A stretch of DNA of 64,000 bases from Pyramidobacter porci. Its GTDB lineage: Bacteria > Synergistota > Synergistia > Synergistales > Dethiosulfovibrionaceae. This document shows, piece after piece, positions 10,632 through 35,099 of this stretch; the first letter of the stretch is position 1; the number at the start of each line of letters is the position of its first letter. The stretch lies in the NCBI RefSeq assembly GCF_009695745.1, contig NZ_VUNH01000003.1, forward strand, positions 124,001 through 188,000, in the 5' to 3' direction. The notes below the pieces were generated by a model that made no database searches, had not been told where the DNA came from, and worked only from the letters and a program-made list of their open reading frames with translations. The translations under genes were made by a program, and so were the position numbers.

Positions 10632-10662
10632 TTGTGAACAGATCCCGAAAAACTGCTATAAT
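10632..10662 (+). promoter_or_regulatory. Promoter for leuS
   Basis: Extended -10 TGCTATAAT (TATAAT at 10657-10662) with a weak -35 TTGTGA (10632-10637). The TG extension can compensate for the long 19-base spacing. Confidence 0.65.
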
Positions 10663-23736: not shown

Positions 23737-24873
23737 CTAATCGGCGTGCATCCTCTGCCAGCTGGGATCGCCGCGGTGCTGTTCGTCGAGCCGGTCGGCC
23801 ATGCCGTTCCAGATCGCGCGCAGCTCCTCGACGGAACGGCGCAGCTTGCGCGCGTACACGGGGCCGCCGGTGGAACTGTACGAGGGATCGACCTTGAAGG
23901 CGTCGGGCGCGATGTTCTTGTTCATGCGCAGCGGGGTCAGTTCGGGATCGCGCAGGACGGCGATCTCGGCGATCACCTGGGCGGTCAGCTTGTCGACGTT
24001 GTCGAGGATCTGATAGTCGTCCACGCCTATGTTGCCGAGCGCGTCGGCGCCGGGCAGTTTCGACACGGCGTCTACGGCCTTGTCGTAGGAACTCCTGGCG
24101 GCTTTTTGCCGTCGATCCAGCTCCGCGAAGAGTTCCTCGCATTCTTTCAGCTTGGCGTCGCTGACGGCCATGACGTGATTGTCGATGATGCGGGCGAGAT
24201 TGTTGATGCCGCTGGCGGCGCGTTTGCCGCCGGTGTTGACGTATTGAGAGAGGCCGGAATAAAGCAGCACGTCGTTGAAAAGATAATTGTTCGGGTACGC
24301 GCCGCTGCGGGAGGCGCGGCCGGAAATTCCCTGCCCGCCGCGCAGCGATTCCACCATGGAGAGAAAAGCCCGGTAAGCGACGTTGTACTCTCGAAGCGTC
24401 TCGGCGTACTCCGCATCGTACTTGCGAAACCACTCGAAAGACTCGTGGAGCCGGTTGGCGCGCAGCACCATGCTGTTGGCCATGATGACGGCGACGAGCT
24501 GGTTCATATATTGGTCGAGAGTAGATTTTTTGACGTAAGTGTAGTAGGCTTCGATGATTTCCTTGACGCGCTGGATGTTCTGAGCCGTGTCGCGGATGGC
24601 GGTCCGCTCGTCGAACATGTTGCGCGCCGTCGTGTAGACCTGGAAATTCTTGAGGGCAAATTCCATGGAGGGGTCTTTGAAGACCGTGCCGACGACCAGC
24701 GGATGGCGGATCGTGTGCATCTGCTCCAGCAAATCCATCGCGACTTTGAGGTTCAGTCCCTCGGGACTGACTTCCGGCATCGGGAGCCGAGGCGGATCCT
24801 GATCGGCCGCGGCGGGCTGCGCGGCAGCCGCCAGGCACAGAGCGAGAACGGCGATAACGGCGCGGAGTTTCAT
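23737..24873 (-). CDS. Exported protein of unknown function (third gene of the three-gene operon)
   Basis: A 378-residue protein I do not recognise. A Sec signal peptide (MKLRAVIAVLALCLAAAAQPAAA) is followed by a mostly helical mature region: long amphipathic stretches (RTAIRDTAQNIQRVKEIIEAYYTYVKK; ECEELFAELDRRQKAARSSYDKAV) separated by a glycine-rich turn (GGQGISGRASRSGAYPNN, about 176-193). There is no lipobox and no catalytic motif I can name. ATG 24873 has GAAAGGAG upstream. It lies 19 bases after the 441-residue exported protein gene, and its last bases face the ltaE terminator. It probably acts in the periplasm with its operon partners. Confidence 0.75.
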   Translation of the reverse strand: MKLRAVIAVLALCLAAAAQPAAADQDPPRLPMPEVSPEGLNLKVAMDLLEQMHTIRHPLVVGTVFKDPSMEFALKNFQVYTTARNMFDERTAIRDTAQNIQRVKEIIEAYYTYVKKSTLDQYMNQLVAVIMANSMVLRANRLHESFEWFRKYDAEYAETLREYNVAYRAFLSMVESLRGGQGISGRASRSGAYPNNYLFNDVLLYSGLSQYVNTGGKRAASGINNLARIIDNHVMAVSDAKLKECEELFAELDRRQKAARSSYDKAVDAVSKLPGADALGNIGVDDYQILDNVDKLTAQVIAEIAVLRDPELTPLRMNKNIAPDAFKVDPSYSSTGGPVYARKLRRSVEELRAIWNGMADRLDEQHRGDPSWQRMHAD

Positions 24874-24892
24874 GGCGATCTCCTTTCTGCGG

Positions 24893-26218
24893 CTAGAAAC
24901 GGAAGCCGATGTCGTAGACGAACCAGCGCCCGCCGTCCTGGCGGCGCAGGCGGTGCGGCTTGGGCGAGCCGACGACCTTGCCGTTGGCGTCCCAGGCGCG
25001 GGTTTCGACGACCGCTTCCTCGAGCTTCGTTCCGCTGGCTTTTTTGATGTCCGCGCGATCCTTTTCGTCGAGGAAGTAGTTGTCGAAGGTGTCCTTTTCG
25101 TCGAAGCCTTTGAGCACCTTAATCCTGGCCTTGCCGAAGGTGACGTGGACGTACTGGCTGTGGAAGCGGCGCTGGTGCAGGTCCCAGAAGAAGGTCGACT
25201 GTTCGCCGTCGATGTCCTTGCGGTCGGCGGACGGGTCGATGCAGCTGCAGTACAGCTTGAAATTTTTCTCCTTGATGGCGGTGACGAAGATCTCCATCAG
25301 CCGTTCCGGCGTCACGTCGTCGGGAACGCTTTTGACGCTGTACCAGCTTTCCTTGACGCGCTGCACGCTCTCTTCGCCGATGAAGACGCCCGACGATTCG
25401 TGGTTGGCGTCGTACAGTGCCATGCAGTGGTCGGGGACGTACAGCGCCACGGGCGTGACGACCCAGCCGAACTGGTAATTGCCGACTTTGTTCTCGCTGG
25501 CGTCGGGGATCTCCGAGGTGATGTCGGTGATCTTGCCCAGGATCGTCCAGTTCTGTACGTCTTCAAGATCGGTGTCGACCTGGCGGCGGAAGCGCTTGAC
25601 GGCCTCGTAGGGGCCGAGCCAGGCGCGTCCGGAAATATCGACGAAGTAGTAGCCGGTGGAGGGCTTGCCGACGGCGATGTATTCGCCCGTGGCGCCGTAG
25701 AACTGTCCCTGCGGGTAGCGCGCGTTTTCGAGGACGACGTAGCGCCCCTGCAGGTCGTCGACGGAGACGGTCTTGTAATCGGGCGTGGGGAATATTTTTT
25801 CGATCGTCTCGGCGCGCTTTTCGCCGATCAGCTTTTCCCAGGCGGCCTTGCCGGCGGCGGCGATGTCTTTGCGCAGCGTTTCCTCGGTGCGCAGGTAGCT
25901 CGTCATCTCCGGCGTGATCTCCATAAAGTCGCCCTTGCTCTTTTTCAGCGCCACGCGGGCGCGCTCGAACAGCGCCTGCACCTGGGGATCGTTCGGGTAT
26001 TTCTCGTGCAGCTCCTGCACGCGGCTCAGCGCGGCGTCCTTGCTGCGCCAGATCGTCTTCTCGCCGCCGCGCTCGCGCGCGACTTCCTGTTCGAACTCGC
26101 GCAGGTAATGTTCGGCGTAGCTGATCAGCTGCCGCTTGTCGGCCGCGGGCGCAGCCGCGGCCAGCGCGGCCCAGAGAACAATCGCGGCCAGCGCCGCGAT
26201 TCTTTTCTTTTTCTTCAT
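24893..26218 (-). CDS. Exported protein of unknown function (second gene of the three-gene operon)
   Basis: A 441-residue protein with a short signal peptide (MKKKKRIAALAAIVLWAALAAAAPAA). Residues about 40-95 look like a TPR-type helical hairpin (VQELHEKYPNDPQVQALFERARVAL). The middle (about 160-260) is strand-rich with YFVDISGRAWLGPYEAVKRFR. The end (about 300-441) resembles an NTF2-like fold: paired helices ERLMEIFVTAIKEKNFKLYCSCIDP followed by strands ending GGRWFVYDIGFRF. No enzyme motif is visible. ATG 26218 follows AAGGAAGTG. The NTF2-like reading is a weak structural guess, not a family match. Confidence 0.75.
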   Translation of the reverse strand: MKKKKRIAALAAIVLWAALAAAAPAADKRQLISYAEHYLREFEQEVARERGGEKTIWRSKDAALSRVQELHEKYPNDPQVQALFERARVALKKSKGDFMEITPEMTSYLRTEETLRKDIAAAGKAAWEKLIGEKRAETIEKIFPTPDYKTVSVDDLQGRYVVLENARYPQGQFYGATGEYIAVGKPSTGYYFVDISGRAWLGPYEAVKRFRRQVDTDLEDVQNWTILGKITDITSEIPDASENKVGNYQFGWVVTPVALYVPDHCMALYDANHESSGVFIGEESVQRVKESWYSVKSVPDDVTPERLMEIFVTAIKEKNFKLYCSCIDPSADRKDIDGEQSTFFWDLHQRRFHSQYVHVTFGKARIKVLKGFDEKDTFDNYFLDEKDRADIKKASGTKLEEAVVETRAWDANGKVVGSPKPHRLRRQDGGRWFVYDIGFRF

Positions 26219-26274
26219 GATAAAATCACTTCCTTGCGATAAAAATTTAAAATCAGTCCTTCGCGCCCATTATA

Positions 26275-28059
26275 TCAGGCGCAAAAATTTACGCCATCGC
26301 GGAGCGGGGATATTTTCTTCGTTGAAAAGATCATAACCGTTTCGCGACGGCCGCGCCTCACCCGAAGAGGTGATTCCGCGGCGGCGCTGCCGACGACCTG
26401 TTGGAACTGGCGCTTGGCGCGAGCTCTGATGCCGGCGCCTGGACCGGAAGCTTCTTCTTGCCGCTGCTCCGGGGCGGCATCGGGCCCCGCGGGCTTCTCC
26501 CCGTCGGCGGGGGCTCTCCGTTCTTCGCGCATTTTTTGGTCGAGCAGACGGCCGAACTGGGGTTCTCTGACGAACAGCTCGGCGTCGGCTCCGTCAGGGC
26601 CGGTCACGGTGATATTGAAGACGCCGAAAGCGTCTAGCGCGTCGACGGTTGCTTCGGCGGCGCGGCGTCGTTCAGCGTCCGCGCTCGGCGGCCCGAACCG
26701 GTCGATCAGTTTTTTCAGCTCGGTCCTGAGGGCGGGGAAATCCAAACTGAAGGCGAAATAGCCGGGCTTGGCCAGCGCGTTCCGAATATCGTCCGCCGGC
26801 GAGGGCGTCCGCTCCAGTTCGGCGCTGTTCTGAAAAGCGGCGATGAAGCCCCGCGGCGACGATGCGGCATAGCCGGAAAACAGCAGATTGTTCGACAGGC
26901 GCAGTCCCTGCCACTGCCCTTGGGCAAACGGCTCGGTCTTGACGGAGGCGCGGGATTCCGCCTGCTTTTGGAGAAGCCCCAGCAGCAGCTCGCAGACGCG
27001 CTGATTCGCGCCGCTCAGATGGAGGTAAAAGCCGGGGTAGGAGCCCAGCAAACCGCTGGAGCGCCCCGCTACAGCGACGGTGATGCGGCCGCGCAGCACT
27101 TCCGCCAGATCGCTCATGGTCAGGCCGAATTTTTCCAGCGCGGGGAGCAGCTTCTGGCGCAGCGAGCTGTCGAGAGCGTCTTCGCTCGGCAGCAGTTTTT
27201 CGACGCTCAGCAGCGCCAGTAGCGGTCCGCCGCCGACAAGAAGCGGCTTTTCCTGAACGGGAGGAAGCGCGTATCCCGGATGAGTGTCGGCGCTGCCTTT
27301 GGCGGCTTCGAACGCGACGATCTCGCTTGCGTTGCTCCACAGCCGGGCGCGGAGCGAACGCTCCGTGTCGCTGATGCCCACTTCGAACGCAAAGGGAGCT
27401 TTAAGGAATTTGTCGGGCAGGGCTCTTTGGCCGAACAAGAGCGGCAGCTGCGACTGCGGCAGAAAGAACGCGAAGCCGATGGGAGCCGGCGCGTGCTTCG
27501 GCTCCAGCGGCTCGGTATCCGGCACGGCGGCCATCGCTTCGAGCAGGGTGGAATCGTCCGAAGCGCCGACGATGAAGCGCTGCCCGCCGCGCCTCAGCAG
27601 CGCGATATAAACGGGCGACTCCTCGGAGCCGGCCACGGCCAAAGTCTCAAGCGTGGTTCCCGGAGGCGCCGCGCTCAGATGGAGAGGAAAGGTTGCGCTC
27701 CCGAAGGGCAGCTGAAATCCGTCGTCCAGCTCGACGGCGAAAACTCCCGTGCCGACGCTCCGCGCGCCGACGTCGTAGCGCCACCGGCCTTCGGCGCTGC
27801 CGGCGTGCAGGACCAGTTCGCGGAAGTCGGGATCCTCGTCCAATTCCATGGCGGCGGCCGCCGCTTTGCTGAAAATTTGTTCCAGCGGCCTCGCGCCGTC
27901 GTTGAAGAGAGCTTTTACGTTCTCGCAGCTCATGGAAAGACGGCTTTCTTCCTTGAAAAAAGGCGAAACCAGCTGCGCCGTGGTCACCGCCTCGGCGGGA
28001 ACGGCCCACAGCGCAGCAGCGAGAAACAGCGGCGTTGTTCGGTACGATAGGAAAGACAT
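26275..28059 (-). CDS. Exported protein of unknown function (first gene of the three-gene operon)
   Basis: A 594-residue protein; ATG 28059 is chosen because AAAAGGAGCG precedes it and it yields a signal peptide (MSFLSYRTTPLFLAAALWAVPAEA). Longer in-frame starts lie upstream of the promoter. The mature part alternates strands and helices, with segments such as YIALLRRGGQRFIVGASDDSTLLEAM and FGLTMSDLAEVLRGRITVAVAG that recall large periplasmic DUF-type proteins, but I cannot name a family. After residue about 505 the chain turns to a Pro/Ala/Glu-rich linker and an arginine-rich tail ending VNFCA. Weakly bound neighbours suggest a joint periplasmic role. Confidence 0.72.
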   Translation of the reverse strand: MSFLSYRTTPLFLAAALWAVPAEAVTTAQLVSPFFKEESRLSMSCENVKALFNDGARPLEQIFSKAAAAAMELDEDPDFRELVLHAGSAEGRWRYDVGARSVGTGVFAVELDDGFQLPFGSATFPLHLSAAPPGTTLETLAVAGSEESPVYIALLRRGGQRFIVGASDDSTLLEAMAAVPDTEPLEPKHAPAPIGFAFFLPQSQLPLLFGQRALPDKFLKAPFAFEVGISDTERSLRARLWSNASEIVAFEAAKGSADTHPGYALPPVQEKPLLVGGGPLLALLSVEKLLPSEDALDSSLRQKLLPALEKFGLTMSDLAEVLRGRITVAVAGRSSGLLGSYPGFYLHLSGANQRVCELLLGLLQKQAESRASVKTEPFAQGQWQGLRLSNNLLFSGYAASSPRGFIAAFQNSAELERTPSPADDIRNALAKPGYFAFSLDFPALRTELKKLIDRFGPPSADAERRRAAEATVDALDAFGVFNITVTGPDGADAELFVREPQFGRLLDQKMREERRAPADGEKPAGPDAAPEQRQEEASGPGAGIRARAKRQFQQVVGSAAAESPLRVRRGRRETVMIFSTKKISPLRDGVNFCA

Positions 28060-28107
28060 GCGATCGCTCCTTTTATGTCGGATAGTCAACGCGGATGAGA
28101 CGGACTC

Positions 28108-28136
28108 AATATAATGAAAATGTTTTCCGAAATCAA
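28108..28136 (-). promoter_or_regulatory. Promoter for the exported-protein operon
   Basis: On the minus strand: -35 TTGATT (28136-28131), 17-base spacer, -10 TATATT (28113-28108), about 50 bases before the start codon. Confidence 0.7.
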
Positions 28137-35070: not shown

Positions 35071-35099
35071 ATTATAACATGACAGCGAAAAGACGACAA
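35071..35099 (-). promoter_or_regulatory. Promoter for the nucleoside phosphorylase
   Basis: On the minus strand: -35 TTGTCG (35099-35094), 17-base spacer, -10 TATAAT (35076-35071). Its -35 touches the terminator of the AsmA-like gene upstream. Confidence 0.7.

Follow-up and report, generated by a model that had tools for sequence, protein, structure and literature searches.

Three Genes on the Minus Strand of the Window

The window is a 64,000-nucleotide stretch of contig NZ_VUNH01000003.1 of Pyramidobacter porci, located within contig C3 of the 2.5-Mb genome (G000). Three open reading frames lie on its minus strand (Table 1), with the sizes that a sequence-only reading of this DNA had given. 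As also read before, the gaps between them are 56 and 19 bases long. Ribosome-binding-like sequences are present. All three proteins start with a hydrophobic N-terminus, which is here regarded as signal-peptide-like, in agreement with the joint export proposed earlier. The three genes had been described as without recognizable family, and indeed none has a match near any cut-off in Pfam and NCBIfam. The locus is flanked by putative threonine-aldolase-like and L-serine-dehydratase-like genes, both read from translations.

Table 1. Features at the locus, in positions of the window.
Feature	Position	Strand	Description
Gene 1	26275..28059	-	594 aa; exported; phylum-wide Synergistota family; very probably outside the two-gene module
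Gene 2	24893..26218	-	441 aa; signal peptide; conserved module protein
Gene 3	23737..24873	-	378 aa; signal peptide; all-helical (predicted model), fast-evolving partner
Probable internal promoter of genes 2 and 3	26269..26277	-	extended −10 TGATATAAT; overlaps the gene 1 stop codon
Promoter-like site of gene 1	28108..28136	-	TTGATT-17-TATATT; conserved in four species of the genus

The sequence-only reading placed all three genes under a single promoter. The promoter match ahead of gene 1 exists, but a perfect extended −10 sequence, TGATATAAT, at the gene 1 stop codon and ahead of gene 2 speaks against a single promoter. Three perfect extended −10 sites are observed in the window, against 0.23 expected. 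The site is intact in both genomes with an intact gene 2 (G000 and G116), and is mutated to TGATGTAAT in both genomes losing gene 2 (G117 and G118). Because the site is kept with gene 2 and mutated where gene 2 is lost, separate transcription of genes 2 and 3 is suggested. Genes 2 and 3 probably have their own promoter at the stop of gene 1. The two other perfect extended −10 sites in the window (TGNTATAAT) are at 10654–10662 on the plus strand and 35071–35079 on the minus strand.

Gene 1 as an Older, Independent Neighbor

The idea that the three genes constitute one exported system with one promoter is supported by their common strand, tight spacing, and joint export, and by several genomes of the locus group f6, in which all three slots are on one strand within ~10 kb. 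The distribution of gene 1 and the probable internal promoter ahead of gene 2 argue against it. With a profile of gene 1 relatives, the gene 1 family is seen in 158 of 188 Synergistota genomes and in 59 of 63 genera. It is thus nearly universal in the phylum, while gene 2 is rare (19 of the 188 genomes). Two deeper species of the genus (G119 and G120) have a gene 1 homolog at the same locus, with the same putative flanks plus one extra gene on the dehydratase side, and genes 2 and 3 are absent there. These homologs are 672 aa (G119) and 668 aa (G120) long, against 594 aa in the window, where the C-terminal part is shorter. Compared with these two species, gene 1 of the window has a different tail, which ends just before gene 2. 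Gene 1 is also retained where genes 2 and 3 decay. Both G117 and G118 have lost most of gene 2 by a deletion, and their gene 3 is broken. The deletion fuses the beginning of gene 2 with the part of gene 3 that codes for the mature protein (L078 7600–8900 in G117 and L077 7700–8900 in G118), and gene 3 is also frameshifted in both genomes. One in-frame TGA is reported in gene 1 of G117.

Gene 1 is placed outside the unit because it stands alone in two species, is retained in two others that lose gene 2, and is widespread where gene 2 is rare. It is an older, independent neighbor of genes 2 and 3. The division into a module of genes 2 and 3 and a separate gene 1 is held with high confidence, and one system of three genes is improbable. 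Of the joint system proposed by the sequence-only reading, what stands is that genes 2 and 3 are tightly linked and recur together across phyla; gene 1 does not share this linkage. A looser association of gene 1 with the pair remains: in six f6 genomes, a distant gene 1 relative shares the strand of gene 2 and lies ~6–8 kb away from it. Profile comparison of gene 1 gives links inside its own family only. One of the 18 members of the gene 1 family alignment A5 matches TcaA_5th, the model of the NTF2-like domain of TcaA (E 1.5e-4).

Genes 2 and 3 Recur as a Unit

A scan of genome contigs revealed 136 relatives of gene 2, and 80 of them were kept. With 44–62% identity, relatives are found in Kiritimatiellota, Desulfovibrionaceae, Succinivibrionaceae, Bacillota, and others, mostly in metagenome-assembled genomes (MAGs) from gut and rumen. 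The record names include Kiritimatiellae, Lentisphaerae, Verrucomicrobia, Desulfovibrio, Mailhella, Desulfobulbaceae, Succinivibrionaceae, several Bacillota families, and Dehalococcoidales; MAGs are numerous among these records, and individual ones may be misbinned. Directly after gene 2, within ~75 bases, an open reading frame is present in 73 of 75 loci (the one counted in L126 may be spurious), coding for ~335–410 aa where complete. Most of these downstream frames can be connected with gene 3, either through iterative profiles or through hhalign. The gathering by iterative profiles is permissive, and also takes in f6 proteins that hhalign leaves unlinked. The gene 3 groups P, Q, 0, 4, 1, and 5 are connected by hhalign in chains. 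Groups 2 (f6) and 6 stay apart in hhalign, which links neither the f6 group nor the L150/L163 group to the gene 3 family. Profile comparison did not link the f6 gene 3 to P0003, the gene 3 protein of the window. The slot after gene 2 in f6 may be occupied by another family than gene 3.

Gene 3 is the only neighbor conserved across gene 2 loci. Together, genes 2 and 3 make up a two-gene module, found again and again as a unit and in no fewer than six phyla. The number of copies per genome is 1–3, and some are tandem pairs. The second copy in the P. porci genome (G000:C2:127885–130358) is 62% identical in gene 2 and 35% identical in gene 3. At L080 4975–8707, L011, and L082, the pair is arrayed in tandem, and the gene 3 copies of these arrays have diverged strongly.

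Single-protein searches of Pfam, NCBIfam, PADLOC, and PDB sequences, extended to alignments for Pfam and PDB, assigned neither gene 2 nor gene 3 to a family, and gave no convincing match for either protein. The pair is undescribed in the sense that the searched libraries contain no model of either protein; the literature was compared by word search only, and an earlier mention under no name is possible. Identity of 44–62% across many phyla, accompanied nearly always by a fast-changing partner of its own, usually corresponds to a real, selected function.

Contrasting Rates and an Apparent Change of Compartment

Gene 2 is conserved, and gene 3 is diverging very fast. Across 67 loci, the distances of gene 2 and gene 3 are correlated, and pairs with 70–80% identity in gene 2 average 30% in gene 3. 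Between species of the genus, dN/dS is 0.37–0.76 for gene 3 versus 0.16–0.21 for gene 2. Relaxed constraint on gene 3 is as possible as positive selection, because no dN/dS exceeds 1. A tree in which all Synergistota copies are forced into a single clade is rejected (p-AU 0.0004). This fits either horizontal transfer or old paralogy.

Hydrophobic N-termini are present in diderms in 41 of 45 gene 2 and 39 of 44 gene 3 proteins, and in monoderms in none of 30 for either gene. The monoderm copies appear to be cytoplasmic, and a purely periplasmic role of the pair fits poorly with this. A single switch of compartment is sufficient, because a quick tree groups the gene 2 sequences of monoderms in one clade (SH-aLRT 100).

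Predicted Structure of Gene 2

The predicted model of gene 2 (pLDDT 81.7) consists of TPR-like helices (residues ~28–133), a central alpha/beta domain (~153–290), and an NTF2-like C-terminal domain (~299–441). The TPR-like part and, tentatively, the NTF2-like part had been recognized from the sequence, and the model agrees with both. At the fold level, residues 295–439 of the predicted model align with the NTF2-like structure 9vxg (Z 10.3, rmsd 3.1, 104 residues aligned). The NTF2-like proteins YchJ, MecA_N of PBP2a, and the CaMKII hub align with the C-terminal domain over ~100 residues (Z ~8–10). Gene 2 differs from these proteins in that its domain is joined to a central domain and to TPR-like helices, and sequence identity is 8–17%. 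The N-terminal part of the model resembles BamD (Z 8.5 over 67 residues). Gene 2 has no TPR match in Pfam, and its match to TPR_hemY is weak (E 0.01).

Gene 3 and Its Possible Relatives

The predicted model of gene 3 (pLDDT 87, pTM 0.81) is a long helical bundle, as expected from the earlier description of this protein as helical. The best-conserved stretch is near the C-terminus, at residues ~312–343. Searches of gene 3 against PDB and viral libraries by Foldseek and VIA yielded nothing above helical-bundle noise; gene 3 may nevertheless have a known fold.

Three weak resemblances can be considered. First, alpha-helical pore formers of the ClyA type are long helical bundles of similar size and recurrently match gene 3 weakly (E 0.03–0.1, Z ~7.3–7.9); the scores of gene 3 against ClyA-type proteins and designed bundles are at noise level. 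Unlike ClyA-type pore formers, gene 3 contains no hydrophobic tongue, and has a signal peptide in diderms. Beyond residue 35, a potentially membrane-inserting segment (a 19-mer with a mean Kyte–Doolittle value of at least 1.6) is present in only one of 92 gene 3 relatives. Second, P0003 matches the PADLOC model of DzbA (E 2.5e-4), a component of the Dazbog defence system. This match is absent in the two other gene 3 proteins tested. Third, P0003 weakly matches encapsulated-ferritin (EncFtn) models (E 0.05–0.16).

The third resemblance would suit a ferritin-like, metal-storing or ligand-binding bundle with gene 2 as its loading chaperone. The E-values are only those given above, the gene 3 family profile retrieves no ferritins, and similarity among helical coils is common. 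This explanation is very improbable.

The first two resemblances bear on the possibility that genes 2 and 3 are a conflict module for antagonism or for defence against phages or predators, where gene 3 would be the component in an arms race and gene 2 its carrier or guard. The fast divergence and elevated dN/dS of gene 3, a phylogeny at odds with that of the species, and the several diverged copies per genome, including tandem pairs, are all consistent with such a module. The near absence of hydrophobic segments past the N-terminus, structural scores at the level of helical-bundle noise, and a DzbA match that is weak and confined to P0003 speak against it. Moreover, no defence or secretion genes recur beside the pair at the gene 2 loci surveyed, and gene 2 has no match among phage, plasmid, and IMG/VR sequences. 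Taken together, a conflict module is rather unlikely.

Gene Neighborhoods and Possible Function

The paralogous pair of P. porci (L073/L093, G000:C2:114000–137000) heads a run of genes on the same strand, coding for a 557-aa exported protein, an SPFH (band-7) protein, a zinc-ribbon protein, alpha-2-macroglobulin (A2M), and PBP1C. It also adjoins a LuxR-type response regulator and a histidine-kinase-like gene. The adjacent band-7 and zinc-ribbon genes are the arrangement of SPFH/YdjI-type envelope operons; no such genes are seen beside the locus in the window, where flanks were read from translations. Most f6 loci (L084–L088, L090, and L091) contain gene 2 and one or two exported helical genes, followed by PspA, YbjN, GIDE, a leucine-rich repeat (LRR) protein, and the distant gene 1 relative.

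Several neighbors recur. LRR proteins are found near the pair in f6, L136, L145, and L146, zinc ribbons in the Pyramidobacter C2 locus, L169, and L174, and A2M with PBP1C in the Pyramidobacter C2 locus and L168. These three kinds of neighbors recur in separate phyla. In four genomes, which belong to at least three lineages, TMEM43 is near gene 2 (L083, L124, L146, and genome G202). The TMEM43 family is present in 7 of 14 genomes bearing gene 2 and in 0 of 14 controls; this limited comparison is the background for neighbor recurrence, and covers TMEM43 only. Outside Synergistota, the majority of copies have unrelated neighbors, and so do nearly all copies in monoderms. In Lachnospiraceae (L156 6564–9648), the pair is adjoined by a DUF6935 protein and a clostripain-family (C11) peptidase, and relatives of the DUF6935 protein are near the pair in four loci.

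Envelope-stress operons of the PSP/YdjFGHI type have partner sets of PspA, band-7/SPFH, zinc-ribbon, and CesT/YbjN proteins, and YdjG has an NTF2-like domain (PMC11237479, PMC8581546). The position of the paralogous pair beside SPFH and zinc-ribbon genes and of f6 copies beside PspA, YbjN, and GIDE is similar. Unlike in these operons, the gene 2–3 pair also occurs alone, and PspA/IM30 is detected in none of six genomes of the genus. The words tetratricopeptide, LRR, TMEM43, and macroglobulin were searched for in the main text of PMC11237479, and none of them occurs there.

The link to the envelope given by neighboring genes is suggestive. A periplasmic envelope role is proposed because the paralogous copy adjoins the SPFH, zinc-ribbon, alpha-2-macroglobulin, and PBP1C genes. 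The best explanation at present is that one protein is a conserved adaptor and the other its cognate partner, evolving fast, and that they would serve envelope maintenance or defence; our confidence in it falls a little short of even. Gene 2, with its TPR-like arm and NTF2-like pocket, would bind and position its own gene 3 partner, perhaps through the conserved C-terminal stretch of gene 3, while the remainder of gene 3 would meet a changing target. In P. porci, the complex would act in the periplasm. The adaptor mechanism in combination with the envelope role is possible, on the doubtful side. It could further be speculated that the pair represents an undescribed two-protein system that spread horizontally, in which one conserved adaptor serves a helical partner undergoing rapid diversification. 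The entire system would have moved between diderm periplasm and monoderm cytoplasm, and would act in conflict or protect the envelope where gut communities are dense. This wider scenario is itself fairly unlikely. The contrast between a conserved and a fast-evolving protein, together with their joint change of compartment, offers a tractable test of paired-protein co-evolution, and one cultured host of the pair, Succinimonas amylolytica DSM 2873, is on record.
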